Below, piece after piece: positions 13,500-23,294 of a DNA stretch of 57,967 bases. Position 1 is the first letter of the stretch. The number at the start of each line of letters is the position of its first letter. A program made the position numbers and the translations under genes. Origin of the DNA: Terriglobia bacterium (GTDB lineage: Bacteria; Acidobacteriota; Terriglobia; JAIQFV01); contig JAQUPQ010000024.1 in assembly GCA_028716525.1 (NCBI GenBank), positions 1 through 57,967 on the forward strand, read 5' to 3'. Below the pieces are notes generated by a model that was not told the DNA's origin, searched no databases, and worked only from the letters and a program-made list of their open reading frames with translations.

Positions 13500-13528
13500 T
13501 TGACAGCCTTTCAGTCGGAGAATATACT
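13500..13528 (+). promoter_or_regulatory. Sigma-70 promoter for mutS
   Basis: TTGACA (13500-13505), 17-bp spacer, TATACT (13523-13528): a perfect -35 and a 5-of-6 -10. This leaves a leader of about 130 nt before the GTG start of mutS at 13665. It may serve the whole run of co-directional genes down to 22224. Confidence 0.75.
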
Positions 13529-13664: not shown

Positions 13665-16292
13665 GTGATCGAAAACCTCACACCCATGATGCGTCAGTAT
13701 TCGCAGATCAAACAGGCGCATCCCAATGCCCTGCTCTTCTTCCGGCTCGGTGATTTCTACGAATTATTTTTTGAAGACGCATTAATTGCCTCCCGCGAAC
13801 TCCAGATTGTTTTGACCTCGCGTAATCGAGAGAAAGGCATCCAAGTCCCGATGTGCGGCGTCCCGTATCACGCCGCGGACGGTTACATCGACAAGCTGAT
13901 TCGCAAAGGGTTTCGCGTGGCCATCTGCGATCAGACCGAAGATCCGAAATTTGCGAAGAAGCTGGTTCGCCGCGAAATCACACGCATTGTCACTCCCGGC
14001 ACGGTGGTCGCTTCCAATCTTTTAGATCCCTCCGAGAACAATTATTTGTGCGCAATTTGTTGTGACGACAATGCCGCCGGGTTGGCCTGTGCGGATCTTT
14101 CCACGGGCGAATTTAAGGTGGCCCAATTTGCAGGAAAGGATTATCTCCAGCCGCTTTCCGAGGAGTTGGAGAGTCTGCGCCCCCGGGAGATTTTGCATCC
14201 GTCCGAAACTGCGGAATTCATCACTGAGCGCATGTGGCGGTCGGATCGAGCCCGGCCTGTGGATACGGCCATGGAAGACTGGACCTTTGCGTTCGAATAC
14301 GCCGAGCGCATCTTGAAACAGCATTTCGGTGTTCTTACCCTGGCGGGATTGGGTTGCGAGGACTTTCCGCTGGCCATTCGCGCCGCCGGCGCCGTCATTC
14401 ATTATCTCAAGGAGACGCAGCGATCCACCCTGACACATTTGACTCAACTCTCCACCTATTCGCCGAGCCACTTTCTGCTTCTCGATCAAATCACCCAAAA
14501 GAACCTGGAGCTCATCGAGCCTCAATTTGCCGAAAACAAGGATGCCACCCTCCTCAAGACCATTGATTTTACGACCACCGGAATGGGCGCCCGCCTCTTG
14601 CGTCACTGGATTGTGTGGCCGTTATTGCTCCGCGAAGAGATCGAGAAACGACTGAACGTCGTCGAAGAGCTTCAACACTCCACCATCAGCCGAGAGGAAA
14701 TTCGAAACACCCTGAAGACCCTGTGCGACCTGGAGCGCGTCCTCAGCAAAGTTGTTCTGGGAACGGCCACTCCCAGGGAGTTGATTGCCTTAAAACAGTC
14801 CTTGGCGCGGCTTCCCGACATTCGGGATTTTATCGCCCACTATCATTCGGCTCTGTTGGCCGAGATTCATCGCGACATCGATGTACTTGAGGATGTCCGC
14901 CTACTGATTGAGGCTCAAATTAAGCCGGATCCACCGATCAGCATTTCGGAAGGCGGCGTGATTCAAGGCGGTGTCGACAAGGAATTGGACTCCTTGCGCG
15001 ATATCAGCCTCAACGGCAAGACCTACATCGCCCAGCTCGAAGCCCGCGAGCGATCCCGAACCGGAATCAATTCGCTCAAGGTCAAATACAATCAGGTGTT
15101 CGGTTATTATATTGAGGTTTCAAAGAGCAACCTCGATCATGTACCGCAGGATTACGAACGCAAACAAACGCTTGTGAATGCCGAACGCTTTACCACTCCG
15201 GAATTGAAAGAATATGAAGTCAAAGTTTTAAGCGCCGAGGAGCGGATCTGCGAGCTGGAAAAGAGTTTGTATGAAGCCATACGCGCCCAGATTGCGGCCC
15301 AGTCGCCACGCATCCGCCAGACGGCTCAGGCTGTAGCCCAACTCGATGTTTTGTCTTCTCTGGCCACGGCGGCCACACGATACAACTATGTTCGTCCTAC
15401 CTTCAGCTCCTCTTCCGAGTTCATGGTAATTGCAGGACGGCATCCGGTCATTGAACGGATGTGTGAAAAGCAGGGCGAAGGCGGCTTTATTCCGAATGAT
15501 TTGTACATGAATTCCCAAAGTGATCAGATTCTTATTCTCACCGGACCTAATATGGGCGGGAAGTCGACCTACCTTCGGCAAGCGGCGTTGTTGGTGGTGA
15601 TGGCGCAGATGGGCTCCTTTGTTCCCGCCGAAAAGGCTTTGGTACCGATTGTTGACCGGATTTTTACCCGTATCGGAGCCTCCGATAATCTGGCCCGCGG
15701 TCGCTCCACCTTCATGGTGGAGATGACGGAAACCGCAGCCATCTTAAACTCCGCCACGCCGCAAAGCCTGATCATCCTGGATGAAGTGGGCCGCGGTACG
15801 GCCACCTTTGACGGGCTGTCCATTGCATGGGCCACCGTTGAGCACATCCAAAACAATCTACGGGCCAAAACGCTCTTTGCGACTCACTACCATGAACTCA
15901 CGGAACTCGCGACCCTTCTGGCCGGCGTCAAGAATTATCATGTCTCCGTTCGTGAGTCGGGACATCAAATTGTATTTCTGCGCAAAGTGGAAGCGGGCCC
16001 GGCCGACAAGAGTTACGGGATTGAAGTGGCCCGATTGGCCGGGCTTCCGATGCCTGTTGTGGAACGAGCCCGGGAGATATTGAGCCGGCACGAAAAACGT
16101 GAACAGGAAGTCGGCGACGATTTATCGCACCCCGCGGGCGGGAACGGCAGTGGACGTCATTACCAAATATCGTTGTTTGAGCCGCCCTCGCAAGCGCTTG
16201 TAGAAGAGCTTCGAACCCTCCAGGTGGAGAGTCTCACACCCGTGGATGCGCTGAACCTTTTGAACGATTTGGTTAAGAAAGCTAATTCTTAG
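13665..16292 (+). CDS. mutS: DNA mismatch repair protein MutS
   Basis: MutS recognises base mismatches and starts methyl-directed or nick-directed repair. The 875-residue protein carries the mismatch-reading Phe-x-Glu motif (LGDFYELFFEDA), the connector and lever domains, the clamp, and the ATPase with Walker A GPNMGGKST, DEVGRGTATFDG and THYHELTEL. GTG at 13665 is used as start, with an in-frame ATG seven codons later; the upstream AAAGG favours the GTG. Length matches MutS1. It heads a plus-strand run in which anmK follows after 38 bp. Confidence 0.97.
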   Translation: MIENLTPMMRQYSQIKQAHPNALLFFRLGDFYELFFEDALIASRELQIVLTSRNREKGIQVPMCGVPYHAADGYIDKLIRKGFRVAICDQTEDPKFAKKLVRREITRIVTPGTVVASNLLDPSENNYLCAICCDDNAAGLACADLSTGEFKVAQFAGKDYLQPLSEELESLRPREILHPSETAEFITERMWRSDRARPVDTAMEDWTFAFEYAERILKQHFGVLTLAGLGCEDFPLAIRAAGAVIHYLKETQRSTLTHLTQLSTYSPSHFLLLDQITQKNLELIEPQFAENKDATLLKTIDFTTTGMGARLLRHWIVWPLLLREEIEKRLNVVEELQHSTISREEIRNTLKTLCDLERVLSKVVLGTATPRELIALKQSLARLPDIRDFIAHYHSALLAEIHRDIDVLEDVRLLIEAQIKPDPPISISEGGVIQGGVDKELDSLRDISLNGKTYIAQLEARERSRTGINSLKVKYNQVFGYYIEVSKSNLDHVPQDYERKQTLVNAERFTTPELKEYEVKVLSAEERICELEKSLYEAIRAQIAAQSPRIRQTAQAVAQLDVLSSLATAATRYNYVRPTFSSSSEFMVIAGRHPVIERMCEKQGEGGFIPNDLYMNSQSDQILILTGPNMGGKSTYLRQAALLVVMAQMGSFVPAEKALVPIVDRIFTRIGASDNLARGRSTFMVEMTETAAILNSATPQSLIILDEVGRGTATFDGLSIAWATVEHIQNNLRAKTLFATHYHELTELATLLAGVKNYHVSVRESGHQIVFLRKVEAGPADKSYGIEVARLAGLPMPVVERAREILSRHEKREQEVGDDLSHPAGGNGSGRHYQISLFEPPSQALVEELRTLQVESLTPVDALNLLNDLVKKANS

Positions 16293-16330: not shown

Positions 16331-17485
16331 ATGAAACGAATCATTGGTTTGATGTCCGGCACTTCGGTGGATGGAATCGACGTGGCGGTGGTTGATGTCT
16401 CCGGAAACGGCCCGGCCACACGCTTTTGCTTGCGGGCTTTTGAAAATGTTTCCTACCGCCCGTCGGACCGACGTCGCATTCTCTCCTTCCTCACCCCTCA
16501 GAAATTTGAATTGCAGGCCATTAGCCAGCTGAATTTCTGGTTGGGATCCTTGTTTGCCGAAGCCGTCTTGAAAGTGTGCCGCAAGCATCACATCGACGTA
16601 GGAAGTGTTGATCTCATCGGCTCTCACGGACAAACGATTTATCATCAGTCGATCCCTTCCTTGTTTGAGGGCCGCCCTGTGGCCTCGACGCTCCAGCTGG
16701 GTGAAGCTGCGGTCATTGCGGAACGGACAGGCGTCACGACGATTTCAGATTTTCGTGTCCGGGACGTGGCCGCGGGAGGAACGGGGGCTCCGTTGGTTCC
16801 TTATGTGGATTTTCTCCTGCTTCGCGATGAACACAAAAATCGCGTCGCCCTCAACATCGGTGGCATTGCCAATGTCACTTGTTTGCCCCGCCGGGTCCAA
16901 CCTCACAAGCTGATCGCTTTTGACACCGGGCCGGGAAATATGATTATCGATGCGGCCACAGCATTGGTGACGCGGCGACGCATGAGGTTTGATCGGGACG
17001 GTCGCCTGGCTGCAAGTGGTCGGGTAAATGAGCGGGTGCTGAAACGGTGGATGTCGCATCCGTTTTATCGACTGAGACCACCGAAGGCAGCCGGTCGTGA
17101 ACAGTTTGGTGTTGAGTACACCCGGGAGATCGCGAGGGATATGCGTCGCTTTCCGCATAACGATCTGATCGCTACCGCCACGGAACTTACGGCTCGAACG
17201 ATTGTTCTGGGCATTCAACGTTTCGGCGGGATGCGCGGCAATCCCAATGAGCTGATTGTCTCGGGTGGTGGCGCCCGAAATAAATTTCTCCTCACGCGCC
17301 TTCGAGCACTCCTGCCGGCATCACAAGCAATGACCTCAAATGCGGTGGGCATTGACCTGGATGCAAAGGAAGCCATTGCGTTCGCCATCCTCGCCAACGA
17401 AACCTGGCATGGCCGCACGTCAAATGTGCCGTCGGTTACTGGGGCTCACCATGAGGTGATTCTCGGAAAAATCACTCCCGCATGA
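16331..17485 (+). CDS. anmK: Anhydro-N-acetylmuramic acid kinase
   Basis: AnmK cleaves and phosphorylates 1,6-anhydroMurNAc released from murein turnover to MurNAc-6-phosphate, so wall fragments can be recycled. The ASKHA kinase features are visible: GLMSGTSVDGIDVAVVD (phosphate loop), SHGQTIYHQ, DFRVRDVAAGGTGAPLVPY, NIGGIANVT, FDTGPGNMIID and LIVSGGGARN. 384 residues, normal. Its stop overlaps the next gene by 4 bp (ATGA), coupling it to an oligopeptide-type binding lipoprotein, which suggests joint wall-peptide and sugar recovery. No murQ is present in the window. Confidence 0.96.
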   Translation: MKRIIGLMSGTSVDGIDVAVVDVSGNGPATRFCLRAFENVSYRPSDRRRILSFLTPQKFELQAISQLNFWLGSLFAEAVLKVCRKHHIDVGSVDLIGSHGQTIYHQSIPSLFEGRPVASTLQLGEAAVIAERTGVTTISDFRVRDVAAGGTGAPLVPYVDFLLLRDEHKNRVALNIGGIANVTCLPRRVQPHKLIAFDTGPGNMIIDAATALVTRRRMRFDRDGRLAASGRVNERVLKRWMSHPFYRLRPPKAAGREQFGVEYTREIARDMRRFPHNDLIATATELTARTIVLGIQRFGGMRGNPNELIVSGGGARNKFLLTRLRALLPASQAMTSNAVGIDLDAKEAIAFAILANETWHGRTSNVPSVTGAHHEVILGKITPA

Positions 17486-19059
17486 TTAGGACACGCAAAA
17501 TTTCAAAATTCGCCCCAAGGACGTTCCTACTTCTCGGATCAATTCTGGTCATGGCGCAGTTGGGTTTTATCGGGTGTGGTTCGCACCCGAGAGACCCCAA
17601 GACGCTGGTCTTTCTCCTGGAGTCCAGCCCCGTTAGCTTGGATCCCCGGATCGGAACCGATGCGTTTTCAGAGCGGCTCTATGAACTGCTCTTCAACTCT
17701 CTGGTGCGCCGCGATTCCCATGCCAACTTGGTCCCGGACTTGGCGGAGAGTTGGCAAATGCCGGATCCGCTGACCTATGTTTTTCACCTGCGCAAAGATG
17801 TACGATTTCACGACGGGCGCTTGTTGACATCCAGAGATATCCGTTACACCTTTCACAGTATCCTCGATGGCGAAGTAAAGACTGCCAAACGAGACCAGTT
17901 TGTCGACATCCTCAACATAGATACTCCCGATCCTTTTACCGTCGTCATCACGCTTCGTTCAGCCGATGTGAATTTTCTTTGGAACGTATCCTTGGGGCAG
18001 ATTGGCATCGTCCCCGAAAACTCGGATACCCGTTTCGCGGATCATCCCATAGGAACCGGTCCGTTTGAATTTGAGACCATGCATACGGACCAGGATGTGA
18101 TACTCAAGAGGAACCCGTTCTATTTCGGCGGCCCGCCGCGGCTCGAACGCCTGGAATTCAAGATTGTTCCGGAAGCTATCGTCAGAGCCCTCGAAATGCG
18201 GAAAGGCTCGGCCGATATGGCTCTCAATGAATTAACACCCGACATGGTTCGCACCTTACAATCGGATCGCCAGTTGCAGGTTATTGAAGAGCCCGGAACC
18301 ACATACAAATACCTGGCGTTTAATTTGCAGGACCGGATTCTCCAAAATGTGAAAGTTCGAAAAGCCATTGCCTACGCCATCGATATTCCCGCCATCATCA
18401 AATATCTCTGGCGAGATCAGGGAATCCCCGCAAGCGGCATCTTGCCGCCCAGTGTTTGGGCGTACGAACCGCATGTTGAACTGTATCCTCACAACCTCCC
18501 TCTCGCGCGGCGACTGTTGGATGAAGCCGGCTATCCCGTCCCGCCGAAGTCTCCTTCGGCTCCACGATTTACCTTAACCTACAAGACTTCCACCGAGGAG
18601 CTATCGCGATTGGAGGCGATTGTCATTCAACAGCAACTGCGCGAAGCCGGCATTCAAGTTGAAATAAGGTCGTTCGAATTTGCCACGTTCTATTCCGATA
18701 TTATCCAAGGCCGTTTTCAGCTCTTCTCCCTCCGCTGGATCGGCGACAATTTGAATCCTCAAATCTTCGAATCGGTGTTTTATTCCAAAAACATCCCTCC
18801 GGGCGGGAAGAATCGAGGCCACTATTCAAACCCCCGATTGGACGAGCTTATCGAAAAGTCCCGGAGCGAGATGAATCAAGAGGTGCGGAAGCAGTATTAC
18901 TCTGAAATTCAGAAGATTCTGGCCGACGATCTCCCTTACATCAGCTTGTGGTATGTTAATAACGTGTGCATCGCCAACCGGCGGGTCAAAGACATTCATT
19001 TGACGCCTTCGGGCGACTTTGATTTTTTGAAGGATGTTTGGCTGGATGCGAATCAATAG
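17482..19059 (+). CDS. Family 5 ABC transporter substrate-binding lipoprotein (peptide type)
   Basis: Extracytoplasmic solute-binding protein of the OppA/DppA family, 525 residues. It is probably a lipoprotein: an N-terminal hydrophobic stretch ends in LGFIGC with the lipid-modified Cys near residue 32. Family features are LVFLLESSPVSLDPRIGTDA, LVPDLAESWQMPDPLTYVFHLRKDVRFHDG, FADHPIGTGPFEFE and IAYAIDIPAIIKYLW. No permease or ATPase genes of an ABC importer adjoin it, so either they lie elsewhere or this is an orphan sensor-like binding protein. Coupled to anmK by a 4-bp overlap; the muropeptide idea rests on context only. Confidence 0.92.
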   Translation: MIRTRKISKFAPRTFLLLGSILVMAQLGFIGCGSHPRDPKTLVFLLESSPVSLDPRIGTDAFSERLYELLFNSLVRRDSHANLVPDLAESWQMPDPLTYVFHLRKDVRFHDGRLLTSRDIRYTFHSILDGEVKTAKRDQFVDILNIDTPDPFTVVITLRSADVNFLWNVSLGQIGIVPENSDTRFADHPIGTGPFEFETMHTDQDVILKRNPFYFGGPPRLERLEFKIVPEAIVRALEMRKGSADMALNELTPDMVRTLQSDRQLQVIEEPGTTYKYLAFNLQDRILQNVKVRKAIAYAIDIPAIIKYLWRDQGIPASGILPPSVWAYEPHVELYPHNLPLARRLLDEAGYPVPPKSPSAPRFTLTYKTSTEELSRLEAIVIQQQLREAGIQVEIRSFEFATFYSDIIQGRFQLFSLRWIGDNLNPQIFESVFYSKNIPPGGKNRGHYSNPRLDELIEKSRSEMNQEVRKQYYSEIQKILADDLPYISLWYVNNVCIANRRVKDIHLTPSGDFDFLKDVWLDANQ

Positions 19060-20365
19060 CTACATCACAAGTACTGCCTTAGGTCTGGGGCTGTTGTTGG
19101 CGTTTTCACCGGCCTGTTTCGCATGGTCAGTTCAAAAGGCTCCGCCCAAAACGAAAAGCACCAGACCCTCTGATCCCGATGAAGCACTGAGACTCCAAAT
19201 CAATAAAGCCATGGAGAAGAAAGACTGTGTTTCCGCCATTCCTCTGCTGCGAGCTCTTTTGGAGCATTCGCCTCAGGAAGCAGTAGCCTGGTTTAATCTG
19301 GGCAACTGTTATGCCATGACACATAACACCGCTGAAGCCCTGGCTAGTTTCAAAAAAGCCGTGGCCGTCGAGCCGGAACTTTACGAGGCGACGGCCAATA
19401 TGGGCCTGCTCTTGGCTCGCGAAAACCGGTGTGAAGAAGCTATGGAACCCCTGGCAAAGGCCATCAAGCGGGAGCGCAACAATTTCAGCCTGCGGTTTGC
19501 CCAAGGAGTGTGTGAGTTGGAGGGGGGAAAATATGCGGAGGCCGTGGTCGATTTGGCGGCGGCAGCAGGATTACGGCCGAAAGATCCGGATGTCCACATT
19601 CAGCTGGCACAAGCTTATTTGAAATCCGGTCAGGCCCAGGCGGCCGAGGCGGAACTCGAGAAAACCTTGGTTATTGATCCTCAGAACGAACCGGCTCATT
19701 TGGGTTTGGCAAATCTGGCCATTGATCGTAATGATTTGGAGACGGCAGTCGCACAACTCGAAAAGATTGCTGCAGCACATCCCGACAATTTTGCAGTTCG
19801 AGAACAGATTGCCACCCTCTTATTGAATCAGAAGAAATATGAGCAGGCGGCGCAGGAATTGGAGAAGATCCACGCCTCTGCTCCGGATCGAGAGTCGATT
19901 TCTGAAAAGTTAGCCCACGCTTACGCCCAGATCAGCCAGGACGAGAAGGCCATGGCCTTGTATGCCGATTTGATTCGAGCACATCCTGATAATGCGGAGT
20001 ATCATTCCAATCTGGGAAAGCTCTATCTGGCGAAGCGGAATTTCAGTGTGGCCGAGCGGGAATTTCGGGCGGCCCTCAGTCTCCGGCCCACCGACCTGGA
20101 ATGCGCGCGAAACCTGGCCTCCACCTTTCTGTTGGAGGAGAACTTCTCTACGGCCGCCGGACTTTTGGAGAAAATCATCGCCTCGGGCAACGCTACTGCG
20201 GGTGAGTATTTTTACTTGGCCGTCAGCTACGATAAAATGAATCAAGTTGACCCGGCTTATGCGAATTATCAGAAATTTTTAGCCCTGGATCAGGGCAAGA
20301 ATGATACCCAGGAATTCCAAGCCCGGCAGCGCATGAAAATTCTTGAGAAGCGAAAAAAGCGGTGA
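19046..20365 (+). CDS. Secreted tetratricopeptide-repeat protein
   Basis: About 440 residues: a signal peptide (ending SPACFAWS) and then a chain of roughly ten TPR helix pairs, e.g. AVAWFNLGNCYAMTHNTAEA, LYEATANMGLLLARENRCEE, PDVHIQLAQAYLKSGQAQAA and AEYHSNLGKLYLAKRNFSVA. TPR solenoids mediate protein contacts; nothing enzymatic is visible. I use ATG 19046 because GAAGGA lies 11 bp upstream and the signal peptide is cleaner; ATG 19034 is an in-frame alternative that overlaps the previous gene slightly more. Overlaps the binding-protein gene upstream and, by 4 bp, the next gene, so it belongs to a tightly coupled periplasmic set. Confidence 0.85.
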   Translation: MRINSYITSTALGLGLLLAFSPACFAWSVQKAPPKTKSTRPSDPDEALRLQINKAMEKKDCVSAIPLLRALLEHSPQEAVAWFNLGNCYAMTHNTAEALASFKKAVAVEPELYEATANMGLLLARENRCEEAMEPLAKAIKRERNNFSLRFAQGVCELEGGKYAEAVVDLAAAAGLRPKDPDVHIQLAQAYLKSGQAQAAEAELEKTLVIDPQNEPAHLGLANLAIDRNDLETAVAQLEKIAAAHPDNFAVREQIATLLLNQKKYEQAAQELEKIHASAPDRESISEKLAHAYAQISQDEKAMALYADLIRAHPDNAEYHSNLGKLYLAKRNFSVAEREFRAALSLRPTDLECARNLASTFLLEENFSTAAGLLEKIIASGNATAGEYFYLAVSYDKMNQVDPAYANYQKFLALDQGKNDTQEFQARQRMKILEKRKKR

Positions 20366-20862
20366 ATTCCCGTCTCCTCATTTTTGGCAATCGGGCCCGT
20401 TCAACAGTCACCTCCGGCGTCCTTAAGGGCGCATTAGGCCTGTTGATCATTGCGCTGCCTTGTCTTTCATTCACCGCGGACGCCAAGGCCAATCTTCCTA
20501 AGGCCATCGACCTGGCTGTGAAGGACGCCGATAGGACGCTCATTATCATCGAGGGAAATGTAAGAACTAATCAATTTGAAGCTGTGCAGCAAGGCTTGAA
20601 GGAGTACAAGGAGTTGTTGGACGCGGCAATCCCAAAAGCAACCGAATACTTTGTAGGACGGGTGAAAACGCCGGGAATTTTGAAGGACGCTGAAATCAGG
20701 CTGCGGAAGCAGATTCGACGCTTGGCCGACATTCGGCCGGAATTACCCATCCCGCTCCGTACAGACCTGGACTCTGCCACCGATTCCGCCGAAACGCTGC
20801 GCAAGCAGCTTTTCAGGGAATTACTCGGCCCCTCGAAGAAGAAACCAAATTCTCTCGCATGA
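20362..20862 (+). CDS. Small secreted helical protein, unknown function
   Basis: I do not recognise a family. 166 residues from a GTG that overlaps the TPR gene stop by 4 bp (GTGA). An N-terminal signal peptide (hydrophobic GALGLLIIALPCLSF, cleavage near ADA) precedes an all-helical mature region rich in charged residues (VQQGLKEYKELLDAAI, LKDAEIRLRKQIRRLADI, LRTDLDSATDSAETLRKQ). No cysteine pattern or metal motif is visible. Its layout resembles the next protein, and both may be distant relatives. Co-translated with the TPR protein, which may be its partner; that is inference. Confidence 0.75.
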   Translation: MNSRLLIFGNRARSTVTSGVLKGALGLLIIALPCLSFTADAKANLPKAIDLAVKDADRTLIIIEGNVRTNQFEAVQQGLKEYKELLDAAIPKATEYFVGRVKTPGILKDAEIRLRKQIRRLADIRPELPIPLRTDLDSATDSAETLRKQLFRELLGPSKKKPNSLA

Positions 20863-21533
20863 GCATTTTTGTGATCCGGTCAATCAAAGATTCATTCCAC
20901 GGCATGAAGTCAACGCTGCTTGTGTCGATGCTCATCCTTGTTTCGTCTTCTCTTGCCGGAACAACAGTGTGCTTCGGACAGTTCAATCGGCCCGATTTCC
21001 TTTCCGCCAGCGAAGTCGATCAGATCCGTGAGGCCCAGGATATCAACGATCGCGTCCCTCTTTATTTAAGCTTTGCCGGCGCGCGATTGGATGGCGCTCG
21101 AAAGCTCCTGGGTCTTCCTGTAAAGGAGGAGAAGGAATCCAAACACCCCAGGAAAGAGAAAGACCAGGATGTGTCGGCCCCGGTAGCGGGAGATGAACCC
21201 AAGAAGTCGCTGGCCGATTATGTGAACGAATACGCCGACATTTACGAGGAAATGTTGCGGCACTTGGAGCAAAACCTGGATCAAGGAGAGGATTCGCGCA
21301 AAGCTCTTAAAGCGATAATTAAGGAATCGCCGGAACACTTGCAGCGTCTCAAAGAAGTCGCCGCCAAAGTGTCGGAGGCGGCGCCCGATCGCCTGGATGA
21401 TGCCCTGGAGGAAACCGGAAATGCCGTGGATGGCGCGCGCAAGGCCCTCGGTCAACAAGAGGGTCAATTTAATAAACCCAAGGAGAAAGATAAGAATGGA
21501 GGCGGACAAAAGAGAAACGAGAATCTTCACTAG
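20859..21533 (+). CDS. Small secreted charged helical protein, unknown function
   Basis: Unrecognised. 224 residues, start overlapping the previous stop by 4 bp (ATGA). A signal peptide (TLLVSMLILVSSSLAGTTVC, cleavage near CFGQ) is followed by helices separated by a Lys/Glu-rich linker (KEEKESKHPRKEKDQD) and ending in a low-complexity basic tail (PKEKDKNGGGQKRNENLH). Central helices include LADYVNEYADIYEEMLRHLE and LQRLKEVAAKVSEAAP, similar in style to the preceding protein. Its last 38 bp overlap the start of the SprT-like gene in another frame. Confidence 0.75.
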   Translation: MSIFVIRSIKDSFHGMKSTLLVSMLILVSSSLAGTTVCFGQFNRPDFLSASEVDQIREAQDINDRVPLYLSFAGARLDGARKLLGLPVKEEKESKHPRKEKDQDVSAPVAGDEPKKSLADYVNEYADIYEEMLRHLEQNLDQGEDSRKALKAIIKESPEHLQRLKEVAAKVSEAAPDRLDDALEETGNAVDGARKALGQQEGQFNKPKEKDKNGGGQKRNENLH

Positions 21534-22224
21534 AGTTTTCCGTCACTGGAATCCTTCCGCTCCCCCTCCCATAATTGAGATTTCCTTTTATCCCTATTCC
21601 GCCATCTCTCATTCCGTCCGCCTGCGGCGGGGCGTGTATAAGGTTCGACTGAGCCATCTTTTTTCGGCGGCACCCCCGGCCGTCATTGAAGCCGTAGCGC
21701 ACATCCTGTTTTCTCGTTTATACCGCCATGAGACGCCCTGCGAGGCCCTTCATCGCTATCACCTGTTCATCGAAAACAATCGATCGGTCTTCGAGCAACG
21801 CCTGCGTGAGTCTTATGGACCCTCACGCCCTCATGAGCCGCATGGAGCACACTACAACCTCGAGAAAATATTTGACCGTCTGAACCGCACTTACTTCCAT
21901 CCTCGACTCGTCAGGCCCAAACTCTGCTGGAGTCGCAAGAAGGCTCAAGTCAAGCTGGGCGAATACCTGTCCCTTCACCGGCTCATTGTCATCAACCGCC
22001 GTTTCGACGACCCCGACACACCTCACTTCGTCGTGGAGTATCTGGTCTATCATGAGATGCTCCACATGAAACATCCGGTGACAATTCGCAATGGCCGTCG
22101 CATCGTTCACACACGCCCGTTCTCAGAAGATGAAAAACGATTCAAAGATTTCGGGATGGCGCGCGAATGGATTCACAAGATGTCGGGAGCTGAAGAGAAG
22201 AAACGTGTGCGCGGACTGTTCTAG
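21496..22224 (+). CDS. SprT-like zinc metalloprotein
   Basis: Putative zinc-dependent peptidase of the SprT/Spartan-like group. The motif is YHEMLHMKHP (HExxH zinc site) about two thirds along a 242-residue protein, preceded by the SprT-like LEKIFDRLNRTYFHPRL and LGEYLSLHRLIVINRRFDDP. There is no signal peptide, so it acts in the cytoplasm. The ATG at 21496 has AGGAG ten bases upstream; the open frame extends further but would overlap the previous gene more. Ends the mutS-to-SprT run. Whether it cleaves DNA-bound proteins like Spartan or only binds metal cannot be told here. Confidence 0.8.
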   Translation: MEADKRETRIFTRVFRHWNPSAPPPIIEISFYPYSAISHSVRLRRGVYKVRLSHLFSAAPPAVIEAVAHILFSRLYRHETPCEALHRYHLFIENNRSVFEQRLRESYGPSRPHEPHGAHYNLEKIFDRLNRTYFHPRLVRPKLCWSRKKAQVKLGEYLSLHRLIVINRRFDDPDTPHFVVEYLVYHEMLHMKHPVTIRNGRRIVHTRPFSEDEKRFKDFGMAREWIHKMSGAEEKKRVRGLF

Positions 22225-22250: not shown

Positions 22251-23294
22251 CTACTTGTCGCCGGGCAGCTTCCCGGCAATGAGATGAATGGGAATGCGGG
22301 ACACAGGCAGCCGTTGGGCATACTCAAACGCGGTTGTATGCTCGGAAACCAACTCGTCCACCTTGCCCCAGGAACCGCCTCGCCGCTCGAACACCTTCAC
22401 TTTGAGGTTCGCGATTTCGGTGTTGTAGCAAAACACCCGCTGCCCGTCCGGATCCTTGTACTGAACGCCAATCATGTTGGAGGCTCCCACGGACACCTCC
22501 CCCACATAGCCGCGTTTCCCCTGACGACCCATGAAATACCAAAAGAAGGGTTCGAAGCGGGAATGAATCGAAAACCAATCCGACACCTTGTTCAGTAACA
22601 CGACATGGCCGCGATAATTGAATCGGACAATCGTGGCGCGCGGCAAATCAATTCCGGCCCAGCGTACTTCCGAAGAAAAAGCATGCAGCTCACAGCCGGG
22701 ATTGTCTTTAAAGCTCAAACAATTGGCCCACACCCACCGCCGGGCGTGCTCGCTTCCCCACACGTGTTCCTGGCTCCCGGGAGAGTTTTGGCAACGATAG
22801 GTGTTCTGGTTGATTTGAAATTCCCCGGTGAAAGCCGCGTGAGGGTGCGGCGCCAATATCTTGGTTCGGGGCCATTTGCGTTCATACATCCAGGAATACG
22901 GAAAGTATCTGAAGCACGGCGACTCGCTGAAGAAGCGCAGATCCCATTCCAACGATCCCCTTTCGCCATCAATGCGACCGCGACTTTCCTGATGGCTCAA
23001 CCAACAGTTGCCTATTCGAAAATGGAATTGATCATGTGAGATCTCCGCTTCCGTGAGGGGTATGGCCATTCGCAAGGCCAAGTGCTGCTCCGGATCGGCG
23101 GCATGAAAGAAGACGCCCCACACTTCGGCCGTGGACTTCACTTCGGGGTTGTTGGAGGCCAAGAGAGTGAATCGAATCCACAGGGCGTGACCACTCTCCA
23201 AATGGTTGAGCTTAAAGAAATATACCTCATAATGGCCCCGGCGTGAGCCGTCCCATCGGGTCCGATTGGCAAGCTCGGATTCGTTTTGAGTCAT
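22251..23294 (-). CDS. AttH/CrtC-like (lipocalin-like) protein
   Basis: 347 residues resembling the AttH/hydroxyneurosporene-synthase (CrtC) and tocopherol-cyclase-like beta-barrel group: an early WDGSRRGHYEVYFF strand, SLEWDLRFF, a central basic aromatic motif EHVWGSEHARRWVWANC, and late beta strands. CrtC hydrates carotenoid double bonds and other members act on prenyl lipids; which applies here is unknown, and no carotenoid genes are nearby. No signal peptide or membrane anchor is evident. It converges with the SprT-like gene (26 bp apart). Family assignment is from pattern memory and moderate. Confidence 0.6.
   Translation of the reverse strand: MTQNESELANRTRWDGSRRGHYEVYFFKLNHLESGHALWIRFTLLASNNPEVKSTAEVWGVFFHAADPEQHLALRMAIPLTEAEISHDQFHFRIGNCWLSHQESRGRIDGERGSLEWDLRFFSESPCFRYFPYSWMYERKWPRTKILAPHPHAAFTGEFQINQNTYRCQNSPGSQEHVWGSEHARRWVWANCLSFKDNPGCELHAFSSEVRWAGIDLPRATIVRFNYRGHVVLLNKVSDWFSIHSRFEPFFWYFMGRQGKRGYVGEVSVGASNMIGVQYKDPDGQRVFCYNTEIANLKVKVFERRGGSWGKVDELVSEHTTAFEYAQRLPVSRIPIHLIAGKLPGDK

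Follow-up and report, generated by a model that had tools for sequence, protein, structure and literature searches.

A Terriglobia gene run very probably built of two separately conserved modules: anmK with a binding lipoprotein, and exported TPR and four-helix proteins with a SprT/Spartan-related protein

Introduction

AnmK and MurQ carry out consecutive steps of an established pathway. MppA of Escherichia coli is a murein-peptide binding protein that works with the Opp permease, and YepA is also a family-5 binding protein. Periplasmic tetratricopeptide repeat (TPR) proteins such as MamA, PilW, Tgl, PrsT, and GltE share an exported architecture with multiple repeats. According to PMC9790009, the YejBEF-YepA system replaces AmpG as the muropeptide importer in Agrobacterium. 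In this study, we compare with these systems a run of genes from a Terriglobia bacterium (GenBank assembly GCA_028716525.1, contig JAQUPQ010000024.1; the whole stretch of 57,967 nucleotides is called the window), in which mutS and anmK are followed by genes for a solute-binding protein (SBP), a TPR protein, two small proteins called p4 and p5, and a SprT/Spartan-related protein called p6. The run very probably consists of two separately conserved modules that became neighbours in one Terriglobia family. Module A comprises mutS, anmK, and the SBP gene, and module B comprises the genes for the TPR protein, p4, p5, and p6.

Two Modules at One Locus

All seven genes, from mutS (starting at 13665) to p6 (ending at 22224), lie on the forward strand:
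13665..16292, +, mutS, first gene of the run, module A (Pfam MutS domains; NCBIfam MutS 1098 bits, cut-off 480)
16331..17485, +, anmK, anhydro-N-acetylmuramic acid kinase, module A (Pfam AnmK 4.9e-103; NCBIfam NF007148 487.4 bits, cut-off 387)
17482..19059, +, family-5 solute-binding lipoprotein of the Opp/Dpp type, module A (SBP_bac_5 4.6e-85; lipobox-like FIGC)
19046..20365, +, exported TPR protein, module B (TPR profile matches; hydrophobic export signal)
20362..20862, +, p4, exported four-helix protein, module B (family profile; AlphaFold2 mean pLDDT 84.5)
20859..21533, +, p5, exported four-helix protein, module B (family profile; AlphaFold2 mean pLDDT 81.6)
21496..22224, +, p6, SprT/Spartan-related metalloprotease-like protein lacking an export signal, module B (HEMLH motif; Spartan profile match)

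The initial annotation had read the six genes from anmK to p6 as one coupled periplasmic set. Profiles and sequence confirmed that these genes are real and overlap, and the order anmK-SBP-TPR-p4-p5-p6, whose conservation in close relatives had been named as the decisive point, is kept in both (2/2) same-family genomes. The run is probably not accidental, as its order is conserved in relatives.

Gene order was compared across the class in 60 relatives and the window's genome (61 genomes, G000–G060), which were searched for p5 and p6. From the relatives, 60 stretches were fetched, open reading frames were called, and iterated profiles were built; 58 stretches were centred on p6. Counts of p5 are based on profiles, as a single-sequence search detected no p5 in 21 of the 61 genomes, in several of which the profiles did detect it. 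A separate sample held 30 anmK loci including the window's. Species genomes were scanned by p6 only, and the counts for these named loci refer to the best 80 loci of a longer list. uvrA was recognised by eye first, and NCBIfam then confirmed it on two proteins.

Several lines of evidence separated the two halves of the run. First, anmK has mutS at most 1.5 kb upstream in 25 of the 30 anmK loci and is directly followed by an SBP relative in 10, and this mutS-anmK(-SBP) arrangement recurs across class Terriglobia apart from module B. Second, the gene directly ahead of the p4-bearing unit is uvrA in 38 of the 58 p6-centred loci and the SBP gene in two, both from the same family as the window; in 10 loci, the unit follows some other gene or has none ahead of it within 900 bp. 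The remaining eight, all from family f5, carry p6 without p4-p5, and two f5 genomes (L127 and L128) hold TPR-p4-p5 at another place. Third, in 7/7 genomes outside the family with an adjacent anmK-SBP pair, module B is found on another contig, behind uvrA. In G045, a single contig of 5.1 Mb, the distance from anmK to p6 is 3.9 Mb by coordinate (1.2 Mb if circular). Fourth, 12 of the 61 genomes have no anmK match (nine in family f3 and three in f7, some of them incomplete drafts), and all 12 have module B.

Among the best 80 named loci, uvrA-TPR-p4-p5 was found in 31, TPR-p4-p5 in 13, uvrA-TPR without p4-p5 in 13, TPR without p4-p5 in one, and p5 only in six, while 15 had none of these genes in reach, several of them on short contigs. 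The full anmK-SBP-TPR-p4-p5 arrangement occurred once, on a contig of the same-family genome G002. Two records titled Rhodanobacteraceae (L154) and Verrucomicrobia Tous-C9LFEB (L173) have the order uvrA-TPR-p4-p5-p6 and are nested among Acidobacteriaceae on the p6 tree; these assemblies are probably mislabelled.

These observations bear directly on the possibility that the run is one unit, in which the lipoprotein, the TPR protein, p4, and p5 would form a periplasmic complex acting on muropeptides or in wall assembly with AnmK behind it. Such a unit would agree with the conservation of the order and of the 4-, 14-, and 4-bp overlaps in 3/3 family members, and module A by itself fits wall salvage. 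However, the frequent uvrA ahead of module B, the genomes that have module B but no anmK match, and the seven genomes with the modules on different contigs all argue against it, and we consider it very unlikely. Because both halves occur apart, it was rejected as the main reading in favour of two modules. Nothing ties module B to muropeptides, and the muropeptide role that had been proposed for the TPR protein and the small proteins was not borne out.

Layout of the Run

The source genome (G000; completeness 96.5%) is a 4.2 Mb draft of 104 contigs, of which the window is contig C24. The gap between mutS and anmK is 38 bp, and mutS, which had been left out of the originally proposed set, is part of the same run. 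The statement that the genes are joined mostly by 4-bp overlaps holds for three of the five junctions, one of which is uncertain. The anmK/SBP junction is an ATGA overlap and the TPR/p4 junction a GTGA overlap, each of 4 bp. At the p4/p5 junction, an ATGA overlap of 4 bp exists if p5 starts at 20859; the p5 profile match starts at the second ATG, 20904, which fits better and makes this overlap uncertain, and the overlap is not seen in the two same-family genomes (L069 and L070). The other two junctions are longer. The SBP/TPR overlap is 14 bp with the TPR start at 19046, behind AAGGA, or 26 bp with a start at 19034, and the p5/p6 overlap is 38 bp, with the p6 ATG at 21496 behind AAGGAG. In L069 and L070, the anmK/SBP, SBP/TPR, and TPR/p4 overlaps are again 4, 14, and 4 bp, and the start at 19046 is favoured because the 14-bp overlap recurs there.

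One candidate promoter for the whole run was noted upstream of mutS:
13500..13528, +, sigma-70-like promoter match TTGACA-17-TATACT, 11/12

The match is weak, as the region holds seven promoter matches compared to 5.3 expected from shuffles, and the scan of the region for promoters and terminators barely exceeded shuffles. Convergent with p6 lies a tocopherol-cyclase-like gene (22251-23294, minus strand; Pfam 1.7e-9).

Module A: AnmK, the Binding Lipoprotein, and Wall Salvage

The initial annotation had linked anmK to wall recycling and had noted that the binding protein has no transporter genes. The latter is correct at the locus but not genome-wide. A search of the window's genome for SBP_bac_5 proteins and BPD_transp_1 permease genes gave seven BPD_transp_1 matches. 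These include a complete, adjacent Opp-type permease pair on contig C10, followed by genes for a NagB-II-like SIS protein, a NagK-like kinase, an SSF symporter, and MurQ (336 bits, cut-off 302). The C10 permease is Opp/Dpp/Nik-like rather than of the YejB/YejE type: its best NCBIfam models are Opp2B/Opp4B and Opp4C (about 3e-73 and 1e-78), compared to 1.7e-29 for the YejB model and 3.7e-30 for the microcin C permease model. The order of the two permease genes and the NagB-II-like gene is kept in 3/3 family members, and no second relative turned up when this assembly was searched with the C10 B subunit. Other BPD_transp_1 matches are PstA/PstC (C14), a choline/betaine type (C31), and ModB (C19).

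No match to AmpG (TIGR00901) was found in the three family members G000, G001, and G002, which are draft genomes, and both AnmK and MurQ are present in G000. Across the 61 sampled genomes, AmpG scored above the cut-off in 12, namely in eight of the 12 genomes that have no anmK match and in four of the 49 that have one; AmpG without AnmK is an odd combination, and all eight belong to family f3 and hence give no independent evidence.

Since an SBP gene lies beside anmK, a permease pair lies beside murQ, and AnmK and MurQ act consecutively, the two places may represent one salvage route that has been split. In such a route, the lipoprotein would bind a periplasmic peptide or muropeptide derived from the wall and would pass it on to an Opp-type permease encoded elsewhere, with the C10 pair as the likeliest candidate; AnmK would then yield MurNAc-6-phosphate, MurQ would take it further, and the SBP route would substitute for AmpG. 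The basis for this proposal comprises the gene identities, the recurring anmK-SBP pair, the linkage of a permease with amino-sugar genes, and the lack of an AmpG match.

Compared to the described systems, module A shows both likenesses and differences. As in YejBEF-YepA (PMC9790009), a binding protein and an ATP-binding cassette (ABC) permease would stand in place of AmpG alongside wall-recycling enzymes; unlike there, the permease is Opp/Dpp-like, is encoded apart from the binding protein, and adjoins amino-sugar genes. As with MppA, a family-5 SBP would be lent to an unlinked Opp-type permease, and a murein peptide-binding protein in the PDB, 3o9p, matches the window's SBP at 1.6e-23. However, this SBP is nearer to other family-5 PDB proteins, including heme- and dipeptide-binding ones (2.7e-57 to 2.2e-50), and unlike MppA it is encoded next to anmK.

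Several results weigh against this proposal. The window's genome has three SBP_bac_5 proteins, and the NagB-II and NagK models on C10 score below their cut-offs. Contig C53 ends (L332) in an Opp-type C subunit that is truncated (Opp2C model 1.1e-50) and probably belongs to a second Opp-type transporter split by the assembly; the salvage reading for module A is weaker because of it, and with three binding proteins and two candidate permeases, the pairing of one with the other is a guess. Furthermore, adjacency of the SBP does not track AmpG loss: AmpG was present in 0/10 genomes with the adjacent SBP and in 3/20 without it (p = 0.53), and thus 17 of the 20 genomes that have anmK but no adjacent SBP also have no AmpG above the cut-off. 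The C53 permease fragment itself adjoins an unannotated long frame.

Collectively, a wall-salvage role is plausible for AnmK and the lipoprotein, and to that extent the earlier link to wall recycling stands; it does not extend to the TPR protein and the small proteins. An AmpG-free route in module A is a tentative reading, to which we give somewhat less than an even chance.

Module B: Paired Four-Helix Proteins and an Exported TPR Protein

p4 and p5 are distant homologues, each predicted to form a four-helix bundle. Comparison of the two profiles gave a probability of 96.2% (E 2.5e-9 over 116 columns), while a control with reversed p5 gave 1.6%. In the AlphaFold2 models, the helices span residues 45-68, 72-97, 105-127, and 130-154 of p4 and residues 62-83, 118-141, 147-170, and 177-204 of p5, with pLDDT above 90 for most of the helical core of p5. 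The best VIA structural row is the same for both proteins, MukF 1t98_B 118-281, with Z 12.2 (rmsd 3.8, 123 aligned) for p5 and Z 12.8 (rmsd 2.5, 120 aligned) for p4. For helical bundles, a VIA Z below about 13 may reflect a common arrangement only, and a function derived from likeness to MukF was therefore rejected; the rows were taken to indicate no more than a likeness between the two bundles. At the p5 C-terminus, the final 25 residues carry a net positive charge (+2 or more) in 27 of 41 members.

Neither protein has a convincing match in the curated families. No such Pfam match was found for p4 or p5, and no such NCBIfam match for the window's p4, the window's p5, or the p5 family, in which two NCBIfam models each hit one of 41 members (4.1e-5 and 5.9e-4) and none hit the window's p5. 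DUF5667 (PF18915) is the sole Pfam family that appears in all three p4/p5 alignments (1/41, 2/36, and 1/18 members; best E 7.6e-4), and these matches are too weak to assign p4 and p5 there; no paper in the library searched contains the term DUF5667. Searches of PDB sequences with the p5 and p4 profiles returned mostly designed or coiled-coil proteins.

The two genes are closely linked in the class. Both were found in 52 of the 60 stretches, and in 52/52 the p5 start lies less than 200 bp from the p4 stop or overlaps it. The TPR gene and p4 are within 200 bp or overlap in 43 of the 44 stretches with both, the same holds for p5 and p6 in 44 of 50, and p4-p5-p6, mostly with the TPR gene, recur in nine of the 10 class families sampled. 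The pair also disappears together. In the 14 named loci that have TPR-p6 with no p4-p5 between them, neither p5 nor p4 was found in any of the 14 assemblies (whose completeness was not stated), while both were found in 6/6 controls, adjacent in two Chloracidobacterium assemblies and on different contigs in Paracidobacterium. A p6 tree with 59 rows, built by a quick method, requires three changes to account for the loss of p4-p5, at least two of them forced by well-supported branches.

Joint action of p4 and p5 is best supported by their loss as a pair, their fusion, and their duplication taken together, and on these sequence comparisons we consider it rather likely that they form a physical pair. 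Some observations point the other way. In six of the best 80 named loci, p5 lies beside p6 with p4 not in reach. The pair is thus not always adjacent, and p4 may have been lost, have diverged beyond detection, or lie elsewhere, as in Paracidobacterium, where it is on another contig. The strongest evidence against joint action comes from other classes, where no p4 was detected nearby in seven of 20 stretches chosen for p5. In addition, neither the p5 nor the p4 model had a Foldseek match at E<=0.001, and the fold thus gives no function. For the unit as a whole, p4 lacks a detected adjoining TPR gene in eight of 50 loci (L096, L100, L108, L120, and L122-L125), seven of them in family f4. Some contigs of these loci end there, and that of L108 ends close upstream.

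The earlier description of the set as secreted holds for three of its proteins. By a simple rule that seeks a hydrophobic N-terminal stretch, the window's TPR protein, p4, and p5 have such a stretch and p6 does not; in the families, the counts are 29/32 for the TPR protein, 35/36 for p4, 41/41 for p5, and 3/42 for p6. On this evidence, p6 does not belong to a periplasmic complex. A loose lipobox pattern was found in four p4 members, all from family f3, and at unlikely positions in three p5 members. Joint action of the three exported proteins in the periplasm is plausible.

The TPR protein resembles MamA, PilW, Tgl, PrsT, and GltE in its exported multi-TPR architecture, with the MamA model matching at E 1.9e-50. 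However, the window's TPR protein misses the curated NCBIfam cut-offs of these families: it scored 171.1 of 200 bits for MamA, 133 of 312.2 for PrsT, and 104.8 of 154 for PilW. That it serves as a scaffold for p4-p5 is a suggestion that falls a little short of an even chance. Module B resembles known TPR-based envelope assemblies in kind, while the p4-p5 set itself is undescribed; among the papers listed by literature searches, none was seen to describe the module B genes.

p6 and DNA Repair

The description of p6 as SprT-like is valid at the level of the family. At E<=0.01, Pfam SprT-like matches 34 of 42 p6 members but not the window's p6 alone, and NCBIfam gave no match at E<=0.001 in the 42 members. 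The HEMLH motif (H186, E187, and H190), H205, and E213 are invariant in 42/42 members. The p6 family profile matches Spartan (SPRTN; PDB 6mdx) at E 1.5e-8, and over 100 positions the HExxH motif aligns together with the third, downstream histidine in an H..EF context. p6 differs from SprT-like proteins and Spartan in that about 120 residues precede the matched part. Judged from these alignments, p6 likely has an intact SprT-type zinc site.

This similarity raises the possibility that module B serves as an operon for DNA damage or proteostasis, with p6 as its core acting as a Spartan-like DNA-protein crosslink protease, co-transcribed with uvrA, and with the exported genes as bystanders. The HExxH...H set, the frequent position of uvrA ahead of the module, the mutS gene farther upstream in the window, and the 13 named loci among the best 80 in which TPR-p6 stays behind uvrA in the absence of p4-p5 all agree with such an operon. 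However, the TPR protein, p4, and p5 carry export signals, and p4-p5 survive without adjoining p6, both in family f5 and in the 20 stretches read from other classes, in none of which p6 was found. Furthermore, p6 has other neighbours outside the class, where in three of 14 loci (L317, L326, and L328, all from family f29) it faces a divergent hrcA-grpE-dnaK-dnaJ run; HrcA and DnaK were confirmed by NCBIfam in L317, and the rest of the heat-shock run was judged by eye. We consider an operon of this kind unlikely.

Distribution Beyond the Class

A wider sample of 396 Acidobacteriota genomes, 47 of the class and 349 others, was searched for p5 and p6. p5 was found in 128 and p6 in 145 genomes, corresponding to 44/47 and 47/47 in the class and to 84/349 and 98/349 in other classes. 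In the 20 other-class stretches, the TPR gene precedes p5 in nine, p4 is a separate gene in eight (one of them 4.7 kb away), and p4 and p5 are fused in one frame in five. argS-like genes lie ahead of the fused p4-p5 genes, one confirmed by NCBIfam and three by eye. Outside the class, a close p6 relative, unlinked to p5, is present in 65 of the 84 genomes with p5 compared to three of the 265 others, where the cut-off for close relatives was set by eye and the clades are not independent.

These distributions also address a simpler possibility, namely that unrelated genes were packed in the ordinary way behind housekeeping genes such as uvrA, argS, and mutS, with a shared function for p4-p5 only. 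The gene in front does vary (uvrA, SBP, argS-like, and others), and any member may be missing or unlinked, as seen for the TPR gene in eight of 50 loci, for p4-p5 in the 14 named loci, and for p6 in f5. Such packing fits poorly with the recurrence of p4-p5-p6 across the class families, with the TPR gene ahead of p5 in other classes, and with the co-occurrence of p5 and close p6 relatives where the two are unlinked. Overall, we regard it as improbable.

Proposed Function and Significance

For module B, we propose that p4 and p5 are exported four-helix bundles that arose by an old duplication, and that the two form a pair. The pair would dock on the exported TPR superhelix to form an envelope scaffold or chaperone complex, with p4 taking a lipoprotein-like form in some members of family f3. 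p6 would be a cytosolic SprT-type zinc protease, co-transcribed with these genes in Terriglobia. The basis for module B comprises export signals, homology, a shared predicted architecture, fusions, joint loss, and linkage. The combined explanation, with a salvage module A next to a TPR/p4-p5 envelope module B and its cytosolic protease, stands only just short of an even chance. A bolder version is rather unlikely, in which p4-p5 would be an exported heterodimer on a TPR scaffold, an old envelope machine peculiar to Acidobacteriota (sampled within the phylum) and co-expressed in Terriglobia with a Spartan-type protease and a DNA-repair gene. If it were true, this machine could couple the state of the envelope to damage repair.

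Acidobacteriota are abundant soil bacteria, and the locus has several implications for their biology. First, it illustrates that gene order within one genome can mislead on function, as two modules looked like one. Second, the anmK-SBP pair in genomes where no AmpG was detected, together with a permease near MurQ, offers a testable wall-sugar salvage route in Acidobacteriota. Third, p4 and p5, a pair that lacks a convincing curated model, recurs in many families, is fused in some genomes, and is lost jointly in others, provide an entry to lineage-specific envelope biology.

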